Assembly: GCA_004298015.1 (NCBI GenBank)
Contig: SCSE01000061.1
Span: forward strand, 21,822 to 85,821
Source: Rhodanobacter sp.
GTDB lineage: Bacteria > Pseudomonadota > Gammaproteobacteria > Xanthomonadales > Rhodanobacteraceae
Direction of reading: 5' to 3'
DNA length: 64,000 bases
This document shows positions 6,461 to 25,068 of the stretch, one piece after another. The notes beneath the pieces were generated by a model. It did not search any database. It saw only the letters and a list, made by a program, of their open reading frames with translations, and was not told the origin of the DNA. Positions within the stretch are counted from its first letter, which is position 1; each line of letters begins with the position of its first letter. Position numbers and translations under genes: made by a program.

Positions 6461-8080
6461 TCAATCAAGCCGGGCAAACCATACGCCATGGCCGGGCAAG
6501 TGCAGGCGAAGGTTCTGCAGCTTTCCCTGCAGCAATCCGTGGCCTTCGATGACTGTCGGAGTGCCCACGCCGGGTGGCAACTCAACGTCGATCGTGGCGA
6601 TGGCGAGATTGAACACCACCAGCACCTTCTCGCCGTTGAGCTCGCGAACGAATGCGAGTACGGGTTCGGCGGTATCGAGAAAGACGATTTCGCCCCGGCA
6701 CAGTGCAGGTTGCGTCTTGCGCCAATGCATGAAAGCGCGAAATCCGCGCAACGCCGAATGCGGATCGGCCTCCTGCTGGGTTACCGACAGGGTCTGGTGT
6801 TTCGATGGTACCGGCAGCCAGGGGTTGGAGCGACTGAAGCCGGCATGCTCGGTATCACTCCACGGCATCGGCGTGCGACACCCGTCGCGCCCCTTGAAGT
6901 TGGGCCAGAAGGCAATGCCGTAGGGATCCTTCAGCGATTCGTACGGCACCTCGGCCTCGGTCAGCGCAAGCTCCTCGCCCTGGTAGACGCAGACCGAGCC
7001 ACGCAGTGAGCAGACCATGGCCGTCAGCAGATTGGCCAGCTTCGGCGACGCATCGCCATTGCCCCAACGACTCAACACGCGTTCGACATCGTGGTTTGAA
7101 ATCGCCCAGCACGGCCAGCCATCACGCATCTGCGCCTCGAGGTTACGCACCGTGTTGCGGATGTAGCCGGCACTGAAGTCGTCGGTCAGCAACTCGAAGC
7201 TGTAGCCCATGTGCAGACGGCGCCCGCTGGTGTATTCGGCCATCGTCGCCAACGAATCCTCGGAGGAAATTTCGCCCAGGGCGGCGACATCCTCATAGCG
7301 ATCCAGCAGCGCTCGCAATTCCTCCAGAAAGGCCAGGTTTTCCGGCTGCGTGTTGTTGTAGTAGTGATACTGGAAGGCGTAGGGATTGTCCGGGCTGAAG
7401 CCGCGCCCTACGCGCTCCTGCAGCGGCTTGGGCGGGTTGTCGCGCAGTTGGCGATCATGGAAGCAGAAGTTGATCGCATCCAGGCGCAAGCCGTCCACAC
7501 CCCGATCGAGCCAGAACTTCACACTGTCGAGCGCCGCCGCACGCACCTCGGCGTGGTGAAAGTTGAGATCCGGCTGCGAGGTCAGGAAGTTGTGCAGGTA
7601 GTACTGCCCACGCCGTGGCTCCCATTGCCAGGCACAGCCGCCGAACAACGACAGCCAGTTGTTCGGCGGCGTGCCGTCGGCTTTCGCATCGGCCCACACG
7701 TACCAGTCCGCTTTCGGGTTGTCGCGGCTCTGCCGGCTCTCGCGGAACCAGGCATGCTCGACCGAGGTGTGACTGAGTACCTGATCGATCATCACCTTCA
7801 GCCCCAGGCCATGCGCCTTGGCCAGCAGCTGATCGAAATCCTGCAACGTGCCGAACAGCGGATCGACATCGCGGTAATCGGCAATGTCGTATCCGAAGTC
7901 GGCCATCGGTGACTTGAAGAATGGCGCGATCCAGATCGCGTCCACCCCCAGCGCCGCGACATAGTCGAGCCGATCGATGATGCCCGGCAGATCGCCTACC
8001 CCGTCGCCGTTGGTGTCGAGAAAGCTGCGCGGATAGATCTGGTAGATAACGCCGCCGCGCCACCAGGGTTGAGTGCTCAT
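6461..8080 (-). CDS. GH13 alpha-glucosidase (cytoplasmic, oligo-1,6-/maltodextrin glucosidase-like)
   Basis: ORF 6461..8131; likely start at MSTQPWWRGGVIYQIYPRSF; GH13 motifs GVDGLRLDAINF, ALGEISSED, SNHDVERV; no signal peptide. Confidence 0.92.
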   Translation of the reverse strand: MSTQPWWRGGVIYQIYPRSFLDTNGDGVGDLPGIIDRLDYVAALGVDAIWIAPFFKSPMADFGYDIADYRDVDPLFGTLQDFDQLLAKAHGLGLKVMIDQVLSHTSVEHAWFRESRQSRDNPKADWYVWADAKADGTPPNNWLSLFGGCAWQWEPRRGQYYLHNFLTSQPDLNFHHAEVRAAALDSVKFWLDRGVDGLRLDAINFCFHDRQLRDNPPKPLQERVGRGFSPDNPYAFQYHYYNNTQPENLAFLEELRALLDRYEDVAALGEISSEDSLATMAEYTSGRRLHMGYSFELLTDDFSAGYIRNTVRNLEAQMRDGWPCWAISNHDVERVLSRWGNGDASPKLANLLTAMVCSLRGSVCVYQGEELALTEAEVPYESLKDPYGIAFWPNFKGRDGCRTPMPWSDTEHAGFSRSNPWLPVPSKHQTLSVTQQEADPHSALRGFRAFMHWRKTQPALCRGEIVFLDTAEPVLAFVRELNGEKVLVVFNLAIATIDVELPPGVGTPTVIEGHGLLQGKLQNLRLHLPGHGVWFARLD

Positions 8081-8185
8081 GCAATGATCCCGAACTTCGT
8101 GCGCCCGCATCATGCGGGACACGCGCCGCAAAGTGCGGCCTTGCGTCGCAGCTTAACCGCGGCAGGCAGGATCAGCCGATGGTTG

Positions 8186-8200
8186 TGCATACGTATTCAT
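8186..8200 (-). promoter_or_regulatory. Operator-like motif, site A (TGCATACGTATTCAT)
   Basis: Near-palindrome around TACGTA, upstream of alpha-glucosidase; reverse complement identical to sites B and C over 15 nt. Confidence 0.65.
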
Positions 8201-8263
8201 CTCCCTCGACATCTTCGCGCCAGACGGCCAAACCCTTGGTGGCCTCGCTGCCAAATGGGTGAA

Positions 8264-8290
8264 GGCTGTCATGGCAGTGATATGACAGCC
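8264..8290. promoter_or_regulatory. Perfect inverted repeat GGCTGTCAT-N9-ATGACAGCC in divergent promoter region
   Basis: 9-bp arms, 9-nt spacer, between sites A and B. Confidence 0.5.
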
Positions 8291-8440
8291 GCGCGTCCGG
8301 ATCGTGGCAAACCCGTTGCCGCAGCACGCTTTCAGCGTTTCACAGCATGGATTTGTATACCACCACCCCGCGGCTTTTGCGCACTGCACAACGCGCCGGC
8401 CAAGGTCGTCGAAGACAAAATCGCCAGCCGTCTGCCCGCA

Positions 8441-8455
8441 ATGAATACGTATGCA
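8441..8455 (+). promoter_or_regulatory. Operator-like motif, site B (ATGAATACGTATGCA)
   Basis: Same 15-mer as sites A (inverted) and C, upstream of TonB-dependent receptor. Confidence 0.65.
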
Positions 8456-8598
8456 GCACAAGCCAACATCGACTTAACCACGACTACCATCGTGTTGCGC
8501 AGGTTTGACAGACCTCGTTCGTATTCGGATCAAGCAGGTGCATCGAGACATCTGCAGTCCCATGCCATAAATCCAATGTTTCAGTACGGGAGGGGTAC

Positions 8599-11508
8599 AT
8601 GTTGAACTTCAAACGCAATCTGCTCAGCGCAGCGCTGGCATCAGCCGTGTTGATGATGGCTGCCAATGCGCAGGCTGAAGCCGCCAACGCCGCGGCGGGC
8701 CAAGGTCAGCAAAGCGCCGACACCAAGGCAAACGGCGACAAGCCGGCAGACGCCAAGACCCGCAAGAAGCCGCAAGCGATGCAGGCCGTCCAGGTCAATG
8801 GTTTCGTCAGCAGCATCGAAAACGCCACCGCGATCAAGCGCAACGCCAACAGCATTGTCGAAGCGGTATCCGCCGAACAGATCGGCAAACTTCCGGGTAT
8901 CAGCATCGCCGACACCCTTGGTCGCCTGCCCGGCCTGGCGGTGCAGACCGTGGACGGTCGCCCGCAGGTATTGACCATCCACGGCCTCGGTCCAGACTTC
9001 AGCACGGCGCTGGTCAACGGCGGCCAGCAGGTGTCGACCTCCAACAACCGCGACGTGCAGTTCGACCAATACCCCTCCAGCTGGTTCAACGCCGTGGTGG
9101 TGCACCTGAGCCCGCAGGCCAATCTCATCGGCCAGGGCCTGGCCGGCACGGTGGACATGCAGACGATTCGCCCGCTGGAAAAGAACAAGCCGGAAGCGGC
9201 GATGAATGTCCGCTACATCTGGAACGGCATGTCCCAGCTCGCCAGTGGCCCGGGTGTCAGCGACAAGGGTTACAACGTCAACGGCGTATGGGTGAACCAG
9301 TTCGCCGATCACACGGTAGGCGTCACGCTGGGCGTGGATATGGAGTCCAACCCGTCGCAGATCCAGCACCAGGCACCCTGGGGCTATCCGACAGACAATG
9401 CAGTCGCCAACGGCAACGCGGTAATCGGCGGCTCGAAGAACTACGGCATCTCCGACACCATGAAGCGCCGCGGCCTGCTCGCCACCGTCCAGTGGCAGCC
9501 GAACGAGTACTACACCGGCACGATCGACATGACGTACGACAACTTCAAGGAGGTCCAGCAGGCCAAGGGCATGGAGTTGCCGCTCGCCTGGGGCTCGGCC
9601 ACGCTGCAACCTGGCTATACCGCCAATAACGGGCTCATCACCAGCGGCACCTACACCACGTTGTCGCCTGTCATCCGCAACGACTACAACAGCACCAGCT
9701 CGCGCGTCTACAACTTCAACTGGGACAACAAGTTCCACATCAACGAGAACTGGTCGGCCGACCTGGTAGCCAACTACTCGCGTGCCACCAGCCGCCATGT
9801 CAACCTGGAGAGCTACTCCGGCAGCGGCTACAACAAGAGCGGCCCGCTCGGCACGCTGAACTTCAACGAGCAAAGCAATGGCCTGCTGTACGTCAACAAC
9901 TCGGTCGACTACGCCAGCGGCGCCGTGCTGACCGACCCGCAGGGCTGGGGCTCGGGCAGCAACGTGGTGCAGACCGGCTTCGTCAATACGCCGCGCACGG
10001 TGGACTACCTGGCCAACCTCAAGCTCAGCGTCGAGCGTGACTTCATGAGTGGTCCATTCTCCAGCGTGGAGTTCGGCATTGCGCGCAGCACTCGTCAGAA
10101 GACCTACAACATCGAGCAGAACTTCCTGACCCTCGGCGGCGGTTTCATCACCCCCACCAACACGCCGGTGCAGTCGGTACCCTATACTGGCGCCACCTGC
10201 TCGCCGCTGGCCTGGATGGGCCTCGGCGCCCAGCCGTGCTACAACCCGTTTACGCTGATCGGCAACGGCACTTACACCGAGATCCCGGTCTTCATGTCGA
10301 GTCTTCCCATCCCTCCAAACTGGAAGGTTCGCGAGCGCGACACGACGCCTTACTTCCAGTTCAATCTGGACACCCAAATCGGCAACTATTCGTTGCGCGG
10401 CAACTTCGGCGTACAGGCGGCTCTGGTCAGCCAGACATCTCAGGGACAGGGTGTTGTGGTTGCTCCGGGAACAAGCTTTACCGGTGGCAATGCTCAGCTG
10501 ACATCCCGCTCCGGTGGCACTACCTACACTCGCTATCTGCCTAGCCTGAACCTCATCTTCGGCCTGACCTCGAACGATGACATCCGCTTCGGTGCCGCCC
10601 GGACCATGGCGCAGCCGCGCATGGATCAGATGAACAATAGCCTTGCTATCAGCGGCGACAACACACACTTGGCCTCTACTGATCCAAACCAAGCCTACTT
10701 CAGCTCGAAGAGTGGTAATCCACAGCTGAATCCGACCATGGCTGACAACTACAACATCAGCTACGAGCATTATTTCGCAAACGACACCTCGAGCTACCAG
10801 TGCAACTCGTCCGATGCCAAGCAGTCGGACCTGTGCCGTGGCGGCGGCGGTGGCTACTTCGCTGTGTCGGGCTACTTCCTGAAGCTGTCGGACTTCATCA
10901 ACCCCAACTTCGGCGTGCAGCAAGATTTCAGCGCGTATGTTTCCGCCTTCCTGAATCCGGCACAGCAGGCGCAACTGGGGACAACGCAGGGCGTCCGTAC
11001 GTACCCGACCAACGACGGCCACGGCTATGTGAAGGGCGCCCAGGTAACCCTGAACCTGCCCGCCAGCGTGATCACCCCGGCGCTCAGCGGCTTCGGCGTG
11101 ATCGTGAGCGGCAACCGTACCAAGAGCTCGCTGGTCTACGCCGGCAACAGCACACCGATCACCGTGCCCGGCCTGTCGAAGTGGGTAGCGAACGGCACGC
11201 TGTACTACCAGCACCGTGGTTTCGAGGCTCGCGTCAGCGACAGCTACCGCTCCAGCTTCCTGGGCCGGGTGTCCGGCATCAGTTCGTCGCGCATCGAGCA
11301 GACCATCAAGGGCGGCAGCAGCATCGACGCACAAGTCAGCTACACCTTCGATCATGGTCCACTGGAGGGTCTGACGGTGATTGCGCAGGGCTCCAACCTG
11401 AACAACAAGAAGTTCGTCACCTACCAGAACAACGATCCACGACAGGTGCAGACCTGGGAGAGCTACGGCCGTCGCTACGAGGTCGGCGTCTCCTACAAGT
11501 TCAAGTAA
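8599..11508 (+). CDS. TonB-dependent receptor, probable maltodextrin/alpha-glucan transporter
   Basis: 969 aa; signal peptide, plug region (IADTLGRLPGLAVQTVDGRPQVLTIHGLGPDFSTALVNGG), C-terminal beta-barrel ending YEVGVSYKFK; substrate inferred from neighbours. Confidence 0.9.
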   Translation: MLNFKRNLLSAALASAVLMMAANAQAEAANAAAGQGQQSADTKANGDKPADAKTRKKPQAMQAVQVNGFVSSIENATAIKRNANSIVEAVSAEQIGKLPGISIADTLGRLPGLAVQTVDGRPQVLTIHGLGPDFSTALVNGGQQVSTSNNRDVQFDQYPSSWFNAVVVHLSPQANLIGQGLAGTVDMQTIRPLEKNKPEAAMNVRYIWNGMSQLASGPGVSDKGYNVNGVWVNQFADHTVGVTLGVDMESNPSQIQHQAPWGYPTDNAVANGNAVIGGSKNYGISDTMKRRGLLATVQWQPNEYYTGTIDMTYDNFKEVQQAKGMELPLAWGSATLQPGYTANNGLITSGTYTTLSPVIRNDYNSTSSRVYNFNWDNKFHINENWSADLVANYSRATSRHVNLESYSGSGYNKSGPLGTLNFNEQSNGLLYVNNSVDYASGAVLTDPQGWGSGSNVVQTGFVNTPRTVDYLANLKLSVERDFMSGPFSSVEFGIARSTRQKTYNIEQNFLTLGGGFITPTNTPVQSVPYTGATCSPLAWMGLGAQPCYNPFTLIGNGTYTEIPVFMSSLPIPPNWKVRERDTTPYFQFNLDTQIGNYSLRGNFGVQAALVSQTSQGQGVVVAPGTSFTGGNAQLTSRSGGTTYTRYLPSLNLIFGLTSNDDIRFGAARTMAQPRMDQMNNSLAISGDNTHLASTDPNQAYFSSKSGNPQLNPTMADNYNISYEHYFANDTSSYQCNSSDAKQSDLCRGGGGGYFAVSGYFLKLSDFINPNFGVQQDFSAYVSAFLNPAQQAQLGTTQGVRTYPTNDGHGYVKGAQVTLNLPASVITPALSGFGVIVSGNRTKSSLVYAGNSTPITVPGLSKWVANGTLYYQHRGFEARVSDSYRSSFLGRVSGISSSRIEQTIKGGSSIDAQVSYTFDHGPLEGLTVIAQGSNLNNKKFVTYQNNDPRQVQTWESYGRRYEVGVSYKFK

Positions 11509-13295: not shown

Positions 13296-13455
13296 TTGCT
13301 GCAAGTACTTGCGAGACATCCGCCAAGAACCTTCGTCACAGGCCGGTACTTTCGTCACTTGTCGGGTATTCGGTAGCGGTTTCACAGTGGCAGGGATTAC
13401 CCATGCGCGGCGCTTGTACTGCTGTGCACCCATCCTGCCCCACAGGGAACCAGCC

Positions 13456-16400
13456 ATGCCTCCACTACACGCCCGTCTGCTGTCGCTCGCGATCCTCACC
13501 GCACTGGCAGCTACGCCAGCCCTGGCTTCGGACACCGCGCATCACACTCGCTCAACCGACCAATCGTCGCAGCAGAAAGGTCCGTTCGCACAGCTGCATT
13601 TCCGCGACCTGGGTCCGGCCATCGCCGGCGGTCGAGTTTCCGCCATCGCCGGCATTCCGGGCAACCCGTTGATCTATTACGTCGGCGCGGCGGCCGGCGG
13701 CGTATGGAAGACCACCGACGGTGGCCAGCACTGGAAGGCCATTTTCGCGCATGAGGCGACGGCCTCGATCGGCGCGATCGCACTGTCGCGCTCCAACCCG
13801 AATCTGGTCTGGGTCGGTACCGGCGAACCGAATATCCGCAACGACATTGTCGATGGTGCCGGCGTCTATCTATCCACCGACGCCGGCAAGAATTTCAAGC
13901 GCATGGGCCTGGCCGACGCCGGCCAGATCGGCAAGATCGTCGTCGACCCGCACAATCCCGATCATGTGCTGGTGGCCGCACTGGGACATGCCTGGGGACC
14001 GAATGCCGAACGCGGCGTGTTCGAGACCACGGACGGTGGCAAGCACTGGCACAAGACCTTGTTCGTCGACAACCAGACCGGGGCGATCGACATGGCGATG
14101 GCACCGGGCAACCCCGAGGTGCTGTTTGCCGCCACCTGGCAGGTGGTGCGCCACCCCTGGAACCTGGTCGATGGCGGCAAGGGCAGCGGGCTGTGGCGCT
14201 CCATCGACGGTGGCGCCCACTGGACGCGGCTGAGCAAGGGCCTGCCCAAGGGGCCGCTCGGACGGATCGCGGTGGCCACGGCGCCAAGCGATCCGGAACG
14301 CGTCTATACCCTGGTCGAAACCAAACCGGGCAAGGGGCTGTTGTTCGTCTCGCACGATCTCGGCGACAAGTGGACCGAGGTCAGCGACAACCACGCGCTG
14401 GACGTGCGTCCGTTCTACTTCTCGCGTTTTGCCGTGTCACCGACCAATGCCGACCGACTGTATTTCATGTCGTTCCATCTGATGGAGTCCGACGATGGCG
14501 GCAAGACCGCCCACATTATCGACAAGAGCGTGCATGTCGACCATCACGCGATATGGATCGATCCCGAGCACCCGCAGCGCATCATCCAGGGCAACGACGG
14601 CGGTGCCTACCTGAGCCAGGACGGTGGCAAGAGCTGGCGCTTCCTCGACGCCCTGCCGATCGAACAGGATTACATGGTCGCCGCCGACAACAGGACCCCG
14701 TACACCTTGTGCGCCGGGTTGCAGGACAACAGCGGCTGGTGCGGCCCCGCCAACTCGCTGGCGGACAAGGTCAACAGCGGCAACGACTGGTTCAACGTGG
14801 TCGGTGGCGACGGCCAGTACGTGGTGCCGGCGCCAAGCGACTCCAACCTGATCTACAACGACTCGCAGGATGGCACGATGAGCGTGTTCCACCGCGCCAG
14901 CAAGCGCAGCGATTTCGTGATGCCGTATCTTCATGGTCCGGGCTTCGTCAACGACCTGCCGCCCGCCGCGGTGAAATACCGCTTCAACTGGACCAGTCCG
15001 ATCGCGGTCGATCCGCGTGATGCGAAAACGGTCTACCTGGGGGCGAACGTGGTGTTCAAATCCACCGATGCCGGTCTGCATTGGACACCGATCAGCGGCG
15101 ACCTGACCCGCAACGACAAAGCCAAGCAGGCGCTCTCCGGTGGCCCGGTGAATCTGGACCTGTCCGGCGCGGAAACGTACGACACCGTGCTGTCGCTGAG
15201 CATCGCACCGTCGGACCCGAAGGTCCTGTGGGCCGGTACCGACGATGGCCTGGTGCAGGTCACCCGTGACGATGGTGCGCACTGGTCCAACGTTACCCCG
15301 GGCGGCGCACCGAAATGGGCGCGCGTCTACCAGGTCGGCGTCTCCGCGACACAGCCTGGCACCGCGTATGTCGGCTTCGATGCTCACGAACTGGACAACC
15401 GCCACGCCTATGCCTACCGCACCGACGACTACGGTCGCAGCTGGCACAACATCAGCCACGGCCTGCCCGACGCGCCGGTCTCGGTGGTGCGCGAAGATCC
15501 GGCGCATCCCGGCGTGCTGGTGGCCGGCACCGACATCGGTGCGTGGATCTCGCGCGACAACGGCAGCCACTGGTCGCGTCTCACCGCGCACTTGCCGACG
15601 GTGCCGGTGGTCGACGTGAAGTTCGTCCAAGGTGACCTGGTACTGGCGACCCATGGCCGCGGCATTTTCGTACTCGATCACTTCGCCTCGATCGCCGAAT
15701 ACAACCACAAGCTGGCAAAGCAGGCGCTGCACCTGTTCACGCCGCGCGCTGGCACCGAGTACGTACGCTGGTCCCGCGGCGAAGGTGCCGAGCCGCTGTA
15801 CACCGTACCCAATGCACCCGACGGCGTGCTGATCGACTACAGCGTGCCGAAGGCGATCAAGGCTGCCAAGAAGGCCAAGCATGGCGCTGTCACCATCACC
15901 GTGCGCGATGCCCAGGGTCATCTGGTCGCCACCCGTTACACCAACGCCAAGGCCGGCGTGAACCGCTATGCCTGGAACATGCAATACGACGGCGCGACCC
16001 GGTTGACCTTCGAGAAGCACAAGGACAAGAAAGACCGGAAGGACGGCAACAACCCGGATGGCCCGCAGGTATTGCCCGGCACATACAAGGTCACGGTCGA
16101 TGCCGACGGCGCGCAAGCCAGTGAAAACGTGGTGGTTCGCGCCGATCCCAACCAGAAGCCGGCAACCGCTGCGGCGCGCGCCGTCCTCCAGCACGCGCTC
16201 GCGGCACGCAACGAGCTGAGTGCGCTGGACGATGTACTCAACCGGGTCACCGCGATGCAGGCCACGCTCAAGCAGTTCGAGGACAAGGCCGGCAACGACA
16301 ACCGCTACGCCAACACCCTGAAGCTGGCGAAGAAACTCGACGCTGAACTCGGCAAGCTCAAGGACGGCGCCTACAACCCCCATGTGCAGCACGACGTGAT

Positions 16401-16668
16401 CGAGGACGATCTGAAACAACTCAGCGACCTGCACGGCTCGATGAAGGCCTTGTCGGGCTATGGGTTCTCCGGATTGCAGGGACAGTTCCCGACACCGGCT
16501 CTGCTGAGCCTGCAGCAGCAACTGAATGGCAAGGTCGGCAAGCTGATCGATCGCTTCAATACGTTGCTCGGCGGTGATGTGGTCGCCTACAACCATGCCG
16601 CCTATGCGGCGGGCGCGCCAACGCTGATGACCGGCTCGCCCGTAAAAGTGACAGCCGTCAACCTGTAG
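13456..16668 (+). CDS. Secreted Asp-box/BNR (VPS10/sortilin-like) beta-propeller protein, glycosyl hydrolase-like
   Basis: ORF 13309..16668; start ATG 13456 gives a signal peptide; 10 Asp-box motifs S/T-x-D-x-G-x-x-W/F. Confidence 0.85.
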   Translation: MPPLHARLLSLAILTALAATPALASDTAHHTRSTDQSSQQKGPFAQLHFRDLGPAIAGGRVSAIAGIPGNPLIYYVGAAAGGVWKTTDGGQHWKAIFAHEATASIGAIALSRSNPNLVWVGTGEPNIRNDIVDGAGVYLSTDAGKNFKRMGLADAGQIGKIVVDPHNPDHVLVAALGHAWGPNAERGVFETTDGGKHWHKTLFVDNQTGAIDMAMAPGNPEVLFAATWQVVRHPWNLVDGGKGSGLWRSIDGGAHWTRLSKGLPKGPLGRIAVATAPSDPERVYTLVETKPGKGLLFVSHDLGDKWTEVSDNHALDVRPFYFSRFAVSPTNADRLYFMSFHLMESDDGGKTAHIIDKSVHVDHHAIWIDPEHPQRIIQGNDGGAYLSQDGGKSWRFLDALPIEQDYMVAADNRTPYTLCAGLQDNSGWCGPANSLADKVNSGNDWFNVVGGDGQYVVPAPSDSNLIYNDSQDGTMSVFHRASKRSDFVMPYLHGPGFVNDLPPAAVKYRFNWTSPIAVDPRDAKTVYLGANVVFKSTDAGLHWTPISGDLTRNDKAKQALSGGPVNLDLSGAETYDTVLSLSIAPSDPKVLWAGTDDGLVQVTRDDGAHWSNVTPGGAPKWARVYQVGVSATQPGTAYVGFDAHELDNRHAYAYRTDDYGRSWHNISHGLPDAPVSVVREDPAHPGVLVAGTDIGAWISRDNGSHWSRLTAHLPTVPVVDVKFVQGDLVLATHGRGIFVLDHFASIAEYNHKLAKQALHLFTPRAGTEYVRWSRGEGAEPLYTVPNAPDGVLIDYSVPKAIKAAKKAKHGAVTITVRDAQGHLVATRYTNAKAGVNRYAWNMQYDGATRLTFEKHKDKKDRKDGNNPDGPQVLPGTYKVTVDADGAQASENVVVRADPNQKPATAAARAVLQHALAARNELSALDDVLNRVTAMQATLKQFEDKAGNDNRYANTLKLAKKLDAELGKLKDGAYNPHVQHDVIEDDLKQLSDLHGSMKALSGYGFSGLQGQFPTPALLSLQQQLNGKVGKLIDRFNTLLGGDVVAYNHAAYAAGAPTLMTGSPVKVTAVNL

Positions 16669-17006: not shown

Positions 17007-18539
17007 TTATGCACGCGGGCCGTTGGCCGGAAGCGCATCGGGCTGCGCCCGGCAATGCCGCTCGATGTATTGCTGATGCGTCGGCATGCTGCGAACGGCC
17101 TCCTCGATCACCTGGCGCATACCCTGCAGGCGCCCGGTCGCATCGACCTGGCTGCGCATGTCTGCCAGCGGATGGTAGCGCTCGGGCCATACCTCCTGCC
17201 CTACCAGCACGGCCAGCCAGTTGGCGTTCTGGAACAGCTCCATGCTCTCGGCAACCAGCCGGCCACCGCGGCGAAACTGCTCGATCTTGTAGCGCAACGT
17301 GTCGGGGATCGACATCGTCGCGGTCTGGCGCCACAACGGCTCCTCGCGTTGTACCGCGTGGTAGTGCAGGATCAGGAAATCGCGGATGCGTTCGTACTCG
17401 GTATGCGTAAGCCGGTTGTATTCCTGCACCGCGACGGGGTCGAAATCGCGGTCGGGAAACAGCGCCAACAGGCGGGTGACGGCGGTCTGGATCAGATGGA
17501 TGCTGGTCGACTCCAGCGGCTCCATGAAGCCAGCCGACAGACCGATCGCCACGCAGTTGCGGTTCCATGACTGCTTGCGCCGCCCGGCGGTGAAGCGCAA
17601 CTGCCGCGGCGAACCCAGCAGCTCGCCCTCCAGATTGCCCAGCAGCGTCGCCGCGGCCTCGTCGTCGCTGATGAACTGGCTGCAGTAGACGTGGCCGTTG
17701 CCCATCCGGTGCTGCAGCGGGATACGCCACTGCCAACCGGCTGCGTGGGCGGTAGAGCGCGTGTGAGGCGTCAACTCGCGGCGGTGGGTGCAGGCCACCG
17801 CCACCGCGCGGTCGCACGGCAGCCAGTGCGTCCAGTCGTCATAGCCAGTCTTCAGCGCGCCGTCGATCAACAGGCCGCGAAAACCGGAGCAGTCGATGAA
17901 CAGGTCGCCCTCGATCACCGTACCGCCGTCCAGCGTTACGCTCTCAATGAAGCCGTCTTCGCCGCGCAGGCTGACGTCCACCACCTTGCCCTCGGTTCGC
18001 CGTACGCCGCGCTGCTCGGCGTACGTGCGCAGGAAACGTGCGTACAGGCTGGCGTCGAAGTGATAGGCATAGTCGTGGGAGGACAGCACCTGGCGCTGAT
18101 CGGCCACCGGCAGATCGAACTTGCCGGCGCGGGCAGCCACCCAGGCCAGCGCGTAATCCTGCAGCGGCGTGTCGTCACCGCGTTCGCGCTCACGCAGCCA
18201 GTAATGGTGTAGCGGCACCGCATCAAACTCGGCACCGAACTGGCCGAACGGATGAAAGTAGCGTTGCCCGCCACGGGTCCAGTCGACGAACTCGATGCCG
18301 AGCTTGAAGGTGCCCTGGGTGGCCGCCAGGAACGCGTTCTCGTCGATACCCAGCGTGCGGTTGAAGTACTTGATCGGCGGAATCGTTGCTTCGCCGACAC
18401 CAATGCTGCCGATCTGCTCCGATTCGACCAGCTCGATCCGACAGTTGCCCTGCAACGCATTGGCCAGCGCCGCCGCCGTCATCCAGCCCGCCGTACCTCC
18501 TCCCACGATCACGATGCGGCGAATGCGCCGGTCAGTCAT
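17007..18539 (-). CDS. Flavin-dependent halogenase, tryptophan halogenase family (paralogue 2)
   Basis: 510 aa; [36 protein letters not shown]; clear paralogue of 11784..13295. Confidence 0.92.
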
Positions 18540-18705
18540 TTTTCAGTCCCCGGAAATTCAATGGTCGTCGGCTGCCGGTGCGTGGCGAACGATGCCACGC
18601 ATCGAAACCCGGCATGCAGAGGGTTCTGCCAAAGACTAGCCGATTGATTCCTATCCCCGCCCATTTCACCTTGCAACGCAGCATGAAAAACGGCGTTGCC
18701 GGCCG

Positions 18706-18720
18706 ATGAATACGTATGCA
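18706..18720 (+). promoter_or_regulatory. Operator-like motif, site C (ATGAATACGTATGCA)
   Basis: Identical to site B; in divergent region between halogenase 2 and alpha-amylase. Confidence 0.65.
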
Positions 18721-18850
18721 GATGGCGCCGCGGCAGCATCCCAGCGACCTACCATGGGACAGGCATTGCAGCACCGTGGCAGACCGCTGGCAGACGGTGC
18801 GAATCTGACTCGCCATTTCGACGCCTTCACTTCCGCTGGATGGATTTCCG

Positions 18851-20476
18851 ATGAACCGTCACCACGCCCTGGCCTGGCTTGTCCTCGCTGCCGTGTTGCT
18901 CGCTGCAGGCATTACCCCCGCAGCCCATGCGCAACCCAAGCAGACTGTTGCACGTACACATGCCTCCCTCAGCTCACGGTCCTCCGGCGTCTGGTACGAG
19001 ATCTTCGTGCGCAGCTGGTACGACACCAACGGCGACGGTATCGGCGACCTCAACGGTGTCACCGCCAAGCTCGATTACCTGAAATCGCTGGGCATCAGCG
19101 GCATCTGGCTGATGCCGATCAATCCTTCGCCCAGCTATCACGGCTACGACGTCACCAATTACTACGGCATCAATCCGCAATACGGCTCCATGGCCGATTT
19201 CGAGCACCTGCTGCACGAGGCGCACAAGTGCGGCATCAAGGTGATCATGGATCTGGTGATCAACCACACCAGCAGCCAGTCACCCTGGTTCAAGGCCGCG
19301 CAAAATCCGCACAGCCGCTACCACGACTGGTATACGTGGGCCGGCCCGAACACAAATCTGCACGCGATCAGCGCCGCCGGTGGACCGGCCTGGCATGCGG
19401 CCATCGTGTCGGCCGACGGCAAGCCCGTGGCAGGCAGTCCGTATTACCTGGGGGTCTTTGGTCGCAACATGCCGGACCTCAATTACGACGACCCGGCAGT
19501 GCGCCGGGAGATGATCAAGGTTGGGCAGTTCTGGCTGAAAAAAGGGGTCGATGGTTTCCGCCTGGATGCGGCCCGGCACATCTACGACAACCTCGCATCG
19601 GATGACGGCAAGCCATCGACGCTGCGCAAGAACGTGGCGTGGTGGTCGGACTTCCGTCACGGCCTCGATGTCGTCAACCGGCACGCATACCTGGTCGGCG
19701 AAGTGACCGTGCCACCTGCGGCGGCCGCCCACCCCGATGCCCTGCTTGCGCCGTACCTGAAACCGCTCGATTCGGTATTCGACTTCCCGCTGGCCGCCGA
19801 ACTGATCGCCAGTGCACAGCAGGAAAAGGTGCTGCCGATTGCCGCGAGCGTGGCCAGATCCCGTGCCGCGTACCGCGCCGCCTCGGCCGGCCATTTCATC
19901 GATGCGACCTTCCTCTCCAACCACGACCAGAACCGGGTACTGAGTCAACTGGATGGAAATCTGCAGCACATGCGAATGGCGGCTGCCATGCTGTTGACCC
20001 TGCCCGGCCGGCCATTCATCTATTACGGCGAAGAGCTTGGCATGCTCGGCCACAAGCCTGACCCTGACCTGCGCGAACCGATGCGCTGGGATCGCTCACG
20101 CGACGCACCGGGCGAGACACGCTGGAAGGTTTCTTCGGCCCGGCAAGGCGGTGACATTTCGGTCGCGGCCGAACAGACGACGCCCGACTCGCTGCTGAAG
20201 TTCTACCGCATGTTGATTCGCTGGCGCAGTCAGCTGCCGGCATTGCGTGACGGTCGCATCCACCCATTTCCGCTTGCCGGCGAGCAGTTGATGGCCTACC
20301 GCCTCGACGACGCCCGCAGCCACCTGCTGGTGGTGCACAACCTTTCCGGCCGGCCACAGCGGGTCAAGCTGCTGGCGGGATCTTTCCGCCGCGTGATCCG
20401 GCGCACCCGCAAGGACGTCGAAATGCACGGCCACCTGCTGTCCCTGCCGCCCTACTCCACCGCGATCGTGCAATGA
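18851..20476 (+). CDS. GH13 alpha-amylase, exported
   Basis: 541 aa; signal peptide; GVDGFRLDAARHI, YLVGEVTV, FLSNHDQNRV. Confidence 0.93.
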   Translation: MNRHHALAWLVLAAVLLAAGITPAAHAQPKQTVARTHASLSSRSSGVWYEIFVRSWYDTNGDGIGDLNGVTAKLDYLKSLGISGIWLMPINPSPSYHGYDVTNYYGINPQYGSMADFEHLLHEAHKCGIKVIMDLVINHTSSQSPWFKAAQNPHSRYHDWYTWAGPNTNLHAISAAGGPAWHAAIVSADGKPVAGSPYYLGVFGRNMPDLNYDDPAVRREMIKVGQFWLKKGVDGFRLDAARHIYDNLASDDGKPSTLRKNVAWWSDFRHGLDVVNRHAYLVGEVTVPPAAAAHPDALLAPYLKPLDSVFDFPLAAELIASAQQEKVLPIAASVARSRAAYRAASAGHFIDATFLSNHDQNRVLSQLDGNLQHMRMAAAMLLTLPGRPFIYYGEELGMLGHKPDPDLREPMRWDRSRDAPGETRWKVSSARQGGDISVAAEQTTPDSLLKFYRMLIRWRSQLPALRDGRIHPFPLAGEQLMAYRLDDARSHLLVVHNLSGRPQRVKLLAGSFRRVIRRTRKDVEMHGHLLSLPPYSTAIVQ

Positions 20477-20526
20477 CGCGCCCTTGCAATGACGCGCCGA
20501 ACCGTACCCGGCGCCCCGACCTCGAG

Positions 20527-22962
20527 ATGTCCATGGATTTTCGCCTGCCGCACCGCCTCGTTTCCGCCCTGACCGTGCTCGGACTGGGCGCCTGTCTCGC
20601 TTCCGCCCCGGCGCTGGCTGACCCGGCCCCGGCCACCACCACCCCGCAAGTCCATGTGCAACAGAAGGGCCATGGCATCGACATCCAGCTGGACGGAAAC
20701 CGCATCGAACTGCGCCTGGTACGCGGCAACGTGCTGCACGTGCACTACCAACCCGACGGCAAGAGCACGCCGCCATCGCTGGTGATGTCTCCTGATGCGC
20801 CGCGCCACGCCGCCGTGCCGGTTCAGGTACAGCGCCACGGACACGTCATGACCATGACCAGTCCTTCGCTTGGCGTGTCGCTCGACACCCGCACGCTGGC
20901 GCTTTCGGTGAGCGACCGGATCCACCACCGATGGCTGCTGCGGCAAGCCGACCTGGCCGACCTGGCGCAGCACAAGCTCGAGCTCGACTACGCCAGCGGC
21001 GCCCCGATGTACGGTATCCACAGTTTCAGCGCCCAGGGCGGTCCTCTCTACGGTACGCCCGACTGCAGCACGGTCGAGCACGACACCACGGGACTGCTGC
21101 GCCGGGGACGCCAGGTCGCCAAGGCCTGCCCGGAAGGCGGCGCCGGGGCGCCGTTCGTGTGGAGTACCCGCGGCTTCGGGCTGCTGGTCGATACCAAGAC
21201 CGCCACCTTCGACATCGGCGACCACTCGGTCTCGGTCGCCGGGACCTCGCGCCCCGATCTGAGCTATTACATCATCAGCGGTCGGCCGGACGCCATCTTC
21301 ACGGCTCTGGCCGACCTCAGCGGCCACCCGCAGCTGTTCCCGAAGTGGGCCACCGGGTTCACCAATTCCCAGTGGGGCATCGACCAGAAGCAGCTGCTGG
21401 CCATCGTCCACACCTACCGCAGCAAGCACATCCCGATCGACAACTTCACCCTGGACTTTGACTGGAAAGCCTGGGGCCAGGACCACTACGGCGAGTTCCG
21501 CTGGAACGCGAAGAAATTCCCGGACGGCCCCAGCGGCAAGCTGGCGCGTGAGCTGGCCGCCGAAGGCCTGCAGCTGACCGGGATCATGAAGCCGCGCATC
21601 CACGTCGACACCGTCGAAGGGCGCTACGCCACCGTGCACCACCTGTGGGTGCCCGGCGAAAAGGCCACCGACGACTACTTCTCACACAAGCTGGTGCGCG
21701 ACATCGACTTCGACAAGCCGGCGGCACGCCACTGGTTCGGACAGAAGGCGATCCAGTACGGCTTCGACAAGGGCATCGTCGGCTGGTGGAACGACGAGGC
21801 CGACGAAATCGACGACAACACCCAGTTCCTGAACATGGAGCGCGCGCTGTACAACGCCCAGCGCGCACATACCGATATCCGGGTGTGGTCGATCAACCGC
21901 AGCTTCTGGCTCGGGGCTCAGCGCTATGCCTACGGCATGTGGTCGGGCGACATCCAGACCGGCTTCGCGTCGATGGCACGGCAGCGGCTGCGGATGCTCA
22001 ATGCCGTCACCATCGGTGCGACCCTGTGGGGCATGGACGGCGGCGGCTTCAACGGCCACCCCTCGGATGAAAACTACGCCCGCTGGATCGAGTTCGGCGC
22101 CTTCACGCCGATCTTCCGCGTGCACGGCGTCAAGCCCGAGAAGCGCCAGCCCTGGCGCTACGGCCCGATCGCCGAGAAGGCCGCCACGCATGCGATTCGC
22201 CTGCGCTACCGCCTGATTCCCTACATCTACAGCTATTTCTGGCAGGGCCACGCCAGCGGCATCGGCCTGGTACGTCCGCTGGCCTTTGGCTGGCCACACG
22301 ACCCGAAAACCCGCAATGACGTCGATGCCTGGATGTTCGGCGACTGGCTGCTGGTCTCGCCGGTGGTCGTGCAGGGCCAGACCGAGAAGCAGATCTACCT
22401 GCCCGCAGGCACCTGGACCGAGTGGACCAGCGGCAAGGTCTACACCGGCGGACAGAGCGTGACCGTCGCCACCGACAGCGTGCACTGGGGCGACATCCCG
22501 CTGTTCATCCGCCAGGGCGCCATCATCCCGACTCAGCCGGTGATGGACTACGTCGGCCAGCACCCGGTGACCACCCTCAGCGTGGACGTGTTTCCTGCGT
22601 CGCAGGCCACACACTTCGACTACTACGACGACAACGGCCGCACCTATGCCTACGAGCACGGCAGCTATTTCCTGCAGACGCTCACCACGCAACGGCACGG
22701 CCACAGTATCCGATTCGCCACCGACAAGCCCAAGGGAAGCTTCAAGACCCGGCTCGCCTTCTATCTGCTGAAAATTCACGGCAGCGCCGCCAGCGCAGTA
22801 CGCAGCAATGGCAAGAACATGGCGTCGTTCGGCGGCCTTGATGCCTTGCGTGGGGGCAACGGGGAGGGCTGGGCCACCGGCCAGGACCGCTTCGGTCCGG
22901 TCACTTATGTGCGTGTCGCGGCAGCGCGGGCGGAGTCCATCCAGCTCGCCCTGCCACGGTAG
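20527..22962 (+). CDS. GH31 alpha-glucosidase, exported
   Basis: ORF 20473..22962; start 20527 gives a signal peptide; GH31 motifs GIVGWWNDEADE and YAYGMWSGDIQ. Confidence 0.92.
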   Translation: MSMDFRLPHRLVSALTVLGLGACLASAPALADPAPATTTPQVHVQQKGHGIDIQLDGNRIELRLVRGNVLHVHYQPDGKSTPPSLVMSPDAPRHAAVPVQVQRHGHVMTMTSPSLGVSLDTRTLALSVSDRIHHRWLLRQADLADLAQHKLELDYASGAPMYGIHSFSAQGGPLYGTPDCSTVEHDTTGLLRRGRQVAKACPEGGAGAPFVWSTRGFGLLVDTKTATFDIGDHSVSVAGTSRPDLSYYIISGRPDAIFTALADLSGHPQLFPKWATGFTNSQWGIDQKQLLAIVHTYRSKHIPIDNFTLDFDWKAWGQDHYGEFRWNAKKFPDGPSGKLARELAAEGLQLTGIMKPRIHVDTVEGRYATVHHLWVPGEKATDDYFSHKLVRDIDFDKPAARHWFGQKAIQYGFDKGIVGWWNDEADEIDDNTQFLNMERALYNAQRAHTDIRVWSINRSFWLGAQRYAYGMWSGDIQTGFASMARQRLRMLNAVTIGATLWGMDGGGFNGHPSDENYARWIEFGAFTPIFRVHGVKPEKRQPWRYGPIAEKAATHAIRLRYRLIPYIYSYFWQGHASGIGLVRPLAFGWPHDPKTRNDVDAWMFGDWLLVSPVVVQGQTEKQIYLPAGTWTEWTSGKVYTGGQSVTVATDSVHWGDIPLFIRQGAIIPTQPVMDYVGQHPVTTLSVDVFPASQATHFDYYDDNGRTYAYEHGSYFLQTLTTQRHGHSIRFATDKPKGSFKTRLAFYLLKIHGSAASAVRSNGKNMASFGGLDALRGGNGEGWATGQDRFGPVTYVRVAAARAESIQLALPR

Positions 22963-23043: not shown

Positions 23044-25068
<2,025 letters not shown>

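Follow-up and report, generated by a model that had tools for sequence, protein, structure and literature searches.

Most characterised members of the LacI family are repressors. Cra/FruR and PckR, as well as L. lactis MalR and B. subtilis MdxR, are LacI-fold proteins that serve as activators at some promoters, working from sites upstream of them much as is proposed here, and we know of no LacI-family activator with a directional operator held at one fixed distance from promoters without a -35 throughout a regulon. LacI-family operators are described as even palindromes with a central CG (PMC4052901). The closest described system is the maltodextrin regulon of Shewanella, governed by the LacI-family protein MalR (PMC2996990, PMC3223726, RegPrecise). 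In the accessible text of these sources, MalR is annotated as a repressor, with sites ahead of the divergent operons for the receptor and for the glucosidase and porter, and ahead of the susB and malT operons, and that text gives no fixed polarity or -10 spacing for them. Also similar is the CUT locus of Xanthomonas (XCC2469; XAC2595-XAC2602), with a receptor, GH13/GH97 enzymes, an MFS transporter and a LacI-family regulator. For its receptor gene XCC2469 the inducer is maltose (PMC1790865), and for the cluster of X. citri it is starch (PMC10714752). It differs in that the regulator, a presumed repressor, lies within the cluster, whereas in the genome studied here the regulator and the receptor are on different contigs.

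The operators and regulon described here, from a Rhodanobacter sp. (assembly GCA_004298015.1), are fresh instances of the known MalR type. The activator geometry and the polarity of the operator are, as far as we have found, undescribed in the literature, and a literature text search for the motif returned nothing related.

Operator sites of the starch locus

The window, by which we mean the whole stretch of 64,000 nucleotides that was analysed (contig SCSE01000061.1, positions 21,822 to 85,821), contains two exact, inverted copies of the 15-mer ATGAATACGTATGCA between a glucosidase gene and a receptor gene, 255 bp apart and each reading towards its own gene (sites A and B, Table 1). An earlier sequence-only reading had picked out this pair correctly, as near-palindromes with one mismatch; ATGAATACGTATGCA is one base away from the palindrome TGAATACGTATTCA. 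That reading overlooked a third exact copy, site C, ahead of a run of GH13, GH31 and GH13 genes. With up to three mismatches allowed, ATGAATACGTATGCA has 6 matches in the window (the three sites counted on both strands) against 0.65 expected, and 6 matches were reached in none of 100 shuffles.

Table 1. Predicted operators, inferred promoter elements and neighbouring genes in the window.
Feature	Position	Strand	Basis
GH13 alpha-glucosidase	6461..8080	-	Pfam PF00128 4e-125; start codon read from sequence
-10-like TAAGCT, putative promoter	8150..8155	-	30 nt downstream of site A
Predicted MalR operator (site A), facing GH13 glucosidase gene	8186..8200	-	exact ATGAATACGTATGCA; same polarity at orthologous promoters
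Site B, predicted MalR operator facing TonB-dependent receptor gene	8441..8455	+	exact 15-mer
-10-like TACCAT, putative promoter	8485..8490	+	29 nt downstream of site B
TonB-dependent receptor	8599..11508	+	TIGR01782 2.4e-129; PF07715 and PF00593 above cut-off; orthologs found
Site C, predicted MalR operator	18706..18720	+	exact third copy
-10-like TACCAT	18750..18755	+	29 nt downstream of site C
GH13 alpha-amylase/glucosidase, SusG-like, first gene past site C	18851..20476	+	PF00128, PF23915
GH31 glycosidase	20473..22962	+	PF01055 8.8e-65
GH13 with N-terminal domain	23044..25068	+	PF00128, PF02903

The glucosidase next to site A may be XgtA-like, as suggested by the literature, and the receptor would serve maltodextrin uptake. 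Beyond site C, the GH31 gene is likely to form an operon with the GH13 gene before it, because its start overlaps the stop of that gene, and the second GH13 gene is likely to belong to the same operon. The TAAGCT element is kept at orthologous glucosidase promoters. A scan for consensus sigma-70 promoters in the intergenic region gave no matches, which fits the absence of a -35 described below.

It is worth adding that the starch locus also contains two tryptophan-halogenase-like flavoproteins (PF04820; 11784-13295 on the plus strand and 17007-18539 on the minus strand), with a large predicted protein with Sortilin-Vps10/BNR repeats between them (13309-16668, plus strand). In several loci of Alteromonadales (L328, L342, L349), relatives of the PF04820 proteins likewise adjoin the GPH transporter.

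The candidate regulator and its distribution

The draft genome (3.93 Mb in 90 contigs) contains only five exact copies of the 14-mer TGCATACGTATTCA/TGAATACGTATGCA, of which three are sites A, B and C and the other two are on contig C81, and all five precede maltodextrin-type genes or a porter-regulator pair. The motif is not found at random genome positions, and it is conserved, polarity included, at orthologous promoters. One of the C81 sites is upstream of a glycosidase, a GPH-type MFS transporter and a GH13 enzyme. The other precedes a sugar porter gene, behind which comes a LacI-family gene (C81:6079-7104), the product of which has an N-terminal helix-turn-helix (PF00356, 4.8e-15) and a sugar-binding core (PF13377, 8.8e-36), all above cut-off. 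The form of the operator, TGAATAC|GTATGCA, is that of a LacI-family operator: a 14-mer with a central CG and one departure from symmetry. The six LacI-family genes of the genome are all on contigs other than that of the window. The earlier statement that the window has no regulator gene is therefore right for this family, and the earlier proposal of a LacI-family operator acted on in trans is supported. On sequence grounds, C81:6079-7104 is the likely regulator of sites A, B and C.

This assignment was examined in 60 genomes of the family, with TGMATACGTATKCA as the motif. The ortholog (at least 64% identity to the C81 regulator) is present in 42 genomes and the motif in 42, with both in 41, so that the motif is found in 41/42 regulator-positive and 1/18 regulator-negative genomes (Fisher p = 8e-13, kinship ignored). 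The same pattern read backwards occurs in only 2 genomes. The one regulator-positive exception (G008) has sites with one mismatch upstream of its glucosidase and receptor genes, with the usual -10 spacing, and the regulator-negative exception (G046) has a single site (L055) with no -10. In several genomes there are sites upstream of the gene for the regulator itself (L038, L044 and L046; in L341 the site is symmetric).

The genes downstream of the sites are those of a TonB-dependent receptor, GH13 enzymes, a glycosidase of the type found at L013, a GPH-type MFS transporter and sometimes the regulator. The earlier suggestion of a MalR-type maltose regulon is supported: the targets are those of the published Shewanella regulon (PMC2996990), which has an orthologous regulator and sites upstream of a receptor, alpha-glucosidases and a GPH-type transporter, and those of the maltose/starch locus of Xanthomonas (PMC1790865, PMC10714752). 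The ortholog in a Shewanella sp. (L187), beside a malT-like gene, has 57% identity over its full length, and the same 14-mer stands before receptor and MFS genes in Shewanella genomes. Identity to the regulators of Alteromonadales is 55-66%, against at most 41% for the paralogs of the C81 regulator in our genome. The recognition helix GVSQSTVSRAL is identical in the Rhodanobacter, Pseudoalteromonas, Colwellia, Glaciecola and Shewanella orthologs compared, with two substitutions in one Lysobacter. Since this helix hardly varies even at the distance of Shewanella, for which the regulon has been published as that of MalR, the regulon is one that is already known. Judging from these sequence comparisons, sites A and B are very probably binding sites for MalR.

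A variant of the operator, TGCAAACGTATGCA, was seen upstream of zwf-edd (L015:5325-5338) and of the pyruvate kinase gene pyk (L014:5703-5716), positions which correspond to C68:81824 and C25:40702 in our genome. It is present in only 7 of the 60 family genomes, and could be a site for the C81 regulator or a paralog acting on central carbon metabolism.

Promoter geometry

TANNNT, a loose definition of a -10, is found 28-30 nt after TGAATACGTATGCA in 58 of 69 distinct family sites, and at that distance on the other side in none, these sites being related and hence non-independent samples. The composite TGAATACGTATGCA-N28-30-TANNNT occurs at about 430 places (a hand-summed count) in 156 of 234 family genomes, and with the site turned round at 1 place in the 234. 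When 57 non-redundant promoters were aligned on the -10, no -35 was seen, since only 4 reach four of six matches, compared to 5.9 expected. Simple arithmetic from the spacing, with the first T of TANNNT taken as -12, puts the operator centre near -48.5, which is an activator position.

The sequence-only reading took the site for a simple near-palindrome. The operator is indeed one base away from symmetry, but it also has a direction and keeps a set distance of 28-30 nt to a -10, and this speaks for activation. The fully symmetric TGCATACGTATGCA and TGAATACGTATTCA occur in 9 and 8 genomes, respectively. Of the TGAATACGTATTCA sites, 7/8 belong to promoters of the regulon and have the expected distance to the -10, compared to 0/7 of the TGCATACGTATGCA sites examined; the part held fixed is the far half-site TGAATAC.

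In a scan of named genomes, the composite was found, among the matches listed, mostly in Xanthomonas, Stenotrophomonas, Lysobacter, Pseudoxanthomonas, Alteromonas, Pseudoalteromonas, Shewanella, Colwellia and their relatives, and the few scattered matches elsewhere among those listed are probably due to chance. The 14-mer with the same geometry is found in X. arboricola and X. cannabis. Such a scan selects for the geometry, and therefore the 14-mer alone was searched for in 41 of these genomes. This gave 48 asymmetric sites, mostly from Alteromonadales, and 18 symmetric sites that had not already been selected. TANNNT is at 28-30 nt in 32/48 asymmetric sites, in none at 18-20 nt, in 3 at 38-40 nt, and in 4/48 at 28-30 nt on the other side (binomial about 1e-23, kinship ignored). 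Only 1/18 symmetric sites has it at 28-30 nt.

One type of promoter is an exception. At porter-type promoters (L012:8755-8768, L004, and L056, L058, L067 and L069 at 1501, from Rhodanobacter and other genera) the site is reversed relative to the gene, and there is a conserved CAGAAT 24-25 nt downstream of the site. The downstream gene was confirmed as a porter in our own genome. The reversed site and different spacing imply that the regulator may act differently there, and the reversed operator may represent a second mode of action.

Two further features of these promoters were observed. A second element resembling TGCTGCANTGCGA is found at about 18672-18686 in the window, in L005, L060, L063 and L137, and in others, and in many cases lies no more than about 40 nt from the MalR site. 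The pattern, which was chosen by eye, is present in 15/56 non-redundant promoters compared to about 0.1 in shuffles, and a search of the upstream flanks for a partner site found no gapped k-mer beyond the level in shuffles. In Colwellia, Ningiella and Paraglaciecola (L201, L212, L258) there are tandem MalR sites before receptor genes, facing the same direction and 30-32 bp apart, or about three helical turns.

Activation or repression by MalR

The fixed position and direction of the operator at hundreds of promoters suggest, from sequence, that a supposed repressor switches its genes on. The Shewanella and Xanthomonas papers assumed repression or left the sign of MalR action open (PMC2996990, PMC1790865, PMC10714752). 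Fitness data from Shewanella suggested that MalR is a misannotated activator, with a malR-malT cofitness of 0.94 (PMC5443562), and the promoter geometry agrees with Sagawa et al. on this sign. Against this, the regulator is called a repressor in RegPrecise, as quoted in a paper citing it (PMC5443562), and in X. citri (PMC10714752), and the malT site of Shewanella loihica reportedly lies more than 300 bp upstream (PMC5443562). Induction by maltose is compatible with an activator or a repressor alike.

If the same regulator were a classical repressor, MalR would block transcription without maltose, perhaps by looping between A and B, and maltose would release it. This would be in keeping with most of the characterised family, with the assumption made in RegPrecise and by the X. 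citri authors, and with the divergent site pairs, which are common. Set against it are an operator upstream of the promoter at a single fixed distance and direction, with no -35, the many targets with a single site, and the Shewanella fitness data (PMC5443562), so that we regard a repressor as unlikely. A looping repressor of the LacI type has an operator overlapping the promoter, or a phased pair. Here the centre is near -48.5, and the divergent pairs face outwards with spacings of 19 to 614 bp and no preferred helical phase. A loop is therefore not a conserved feature, and looping between A and B, as proposed in the sequence-only reading, is not supported, given this variable and unphased spacing; single sites such as C share the same geometry.

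That the sites belong to another transcription factor, with the C81 regulator merely a neighbour, seems very improbable. The genome has five further LacI-family genes, and the link between the C81 regulator and the sites is one of sequence; however, presence and absence of the motif across the 60 genomes, losses included, tracks the ortholog group of this regulator, which has sites ahead of its own gene in four loci and an identical recognition helix in Shewanella. It is still harder to credit, to the point of being negligible, that ATGAATACGTATGCA is no operator and opens a conserved leader peptide, M-N-T-Y-A. Among the first 74 family sites, 82% have an A before the 14-mer, giving ATG, but this A is kept in only 94/194 sites at the other loci, and the conserved bases are palindromic. 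The leader peptide was rejected because the putative -10 is downstream of the ATG, so that the transcript would not contain it.

We therefore return to activation, and consider it probable that the C81 MalR has its operators at sites A, B and C and most likely activates from them, with A and B acting independently rather than through a loop. In the mechanism that we propose, MalR carrying an effector derived from alpha-glucan (maltose or similar) would bind the asymmetric pseudo-palindrome, which has its centre near -48.5 and lies immediately ahead of promoters with a weak -10 and no -35, and there recruit RNA polymerase. Sites A and B would each serve their own divergent promoter, for the glucosidase and the TonB-dependent receptor, and the malR gene would lie behind a sugar-porter gene bearing its own site. 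The sites, their conservation, their co-occurrence with the regulator, the fixed polarity and spacing and the missing -35 were computed; binding, activation, effector, transcription start and polymerase contact are what we infer from them. More generally, and with somewhat less confidence, we favour the view that in Xanthomonadales and Alteromonadales MalR acts solely as an activator, through a polar operator of which the far half is nearly always TGAATAC while the near half prefers TGCATAC, used in one direction only, 28-30 nt before the -10 and replacing the -35, with the reversed porter operator as a second mode.

These results name a likely regulator of the genes with which Rhodanobacter and its relatives take up starch and maltose, widen its set of targets, and correct the reading of it as a looping repressor. 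They also provide independent sequence evidence, from two orders of Gammaproteobacteria, on whether MalR is a repressor or an activator. Both the activator geometry and the polarity of the operator can be tested, and why a LacI-type protein, presumably a homodimer, should keep an asymmetric and directional operator is a testable question.
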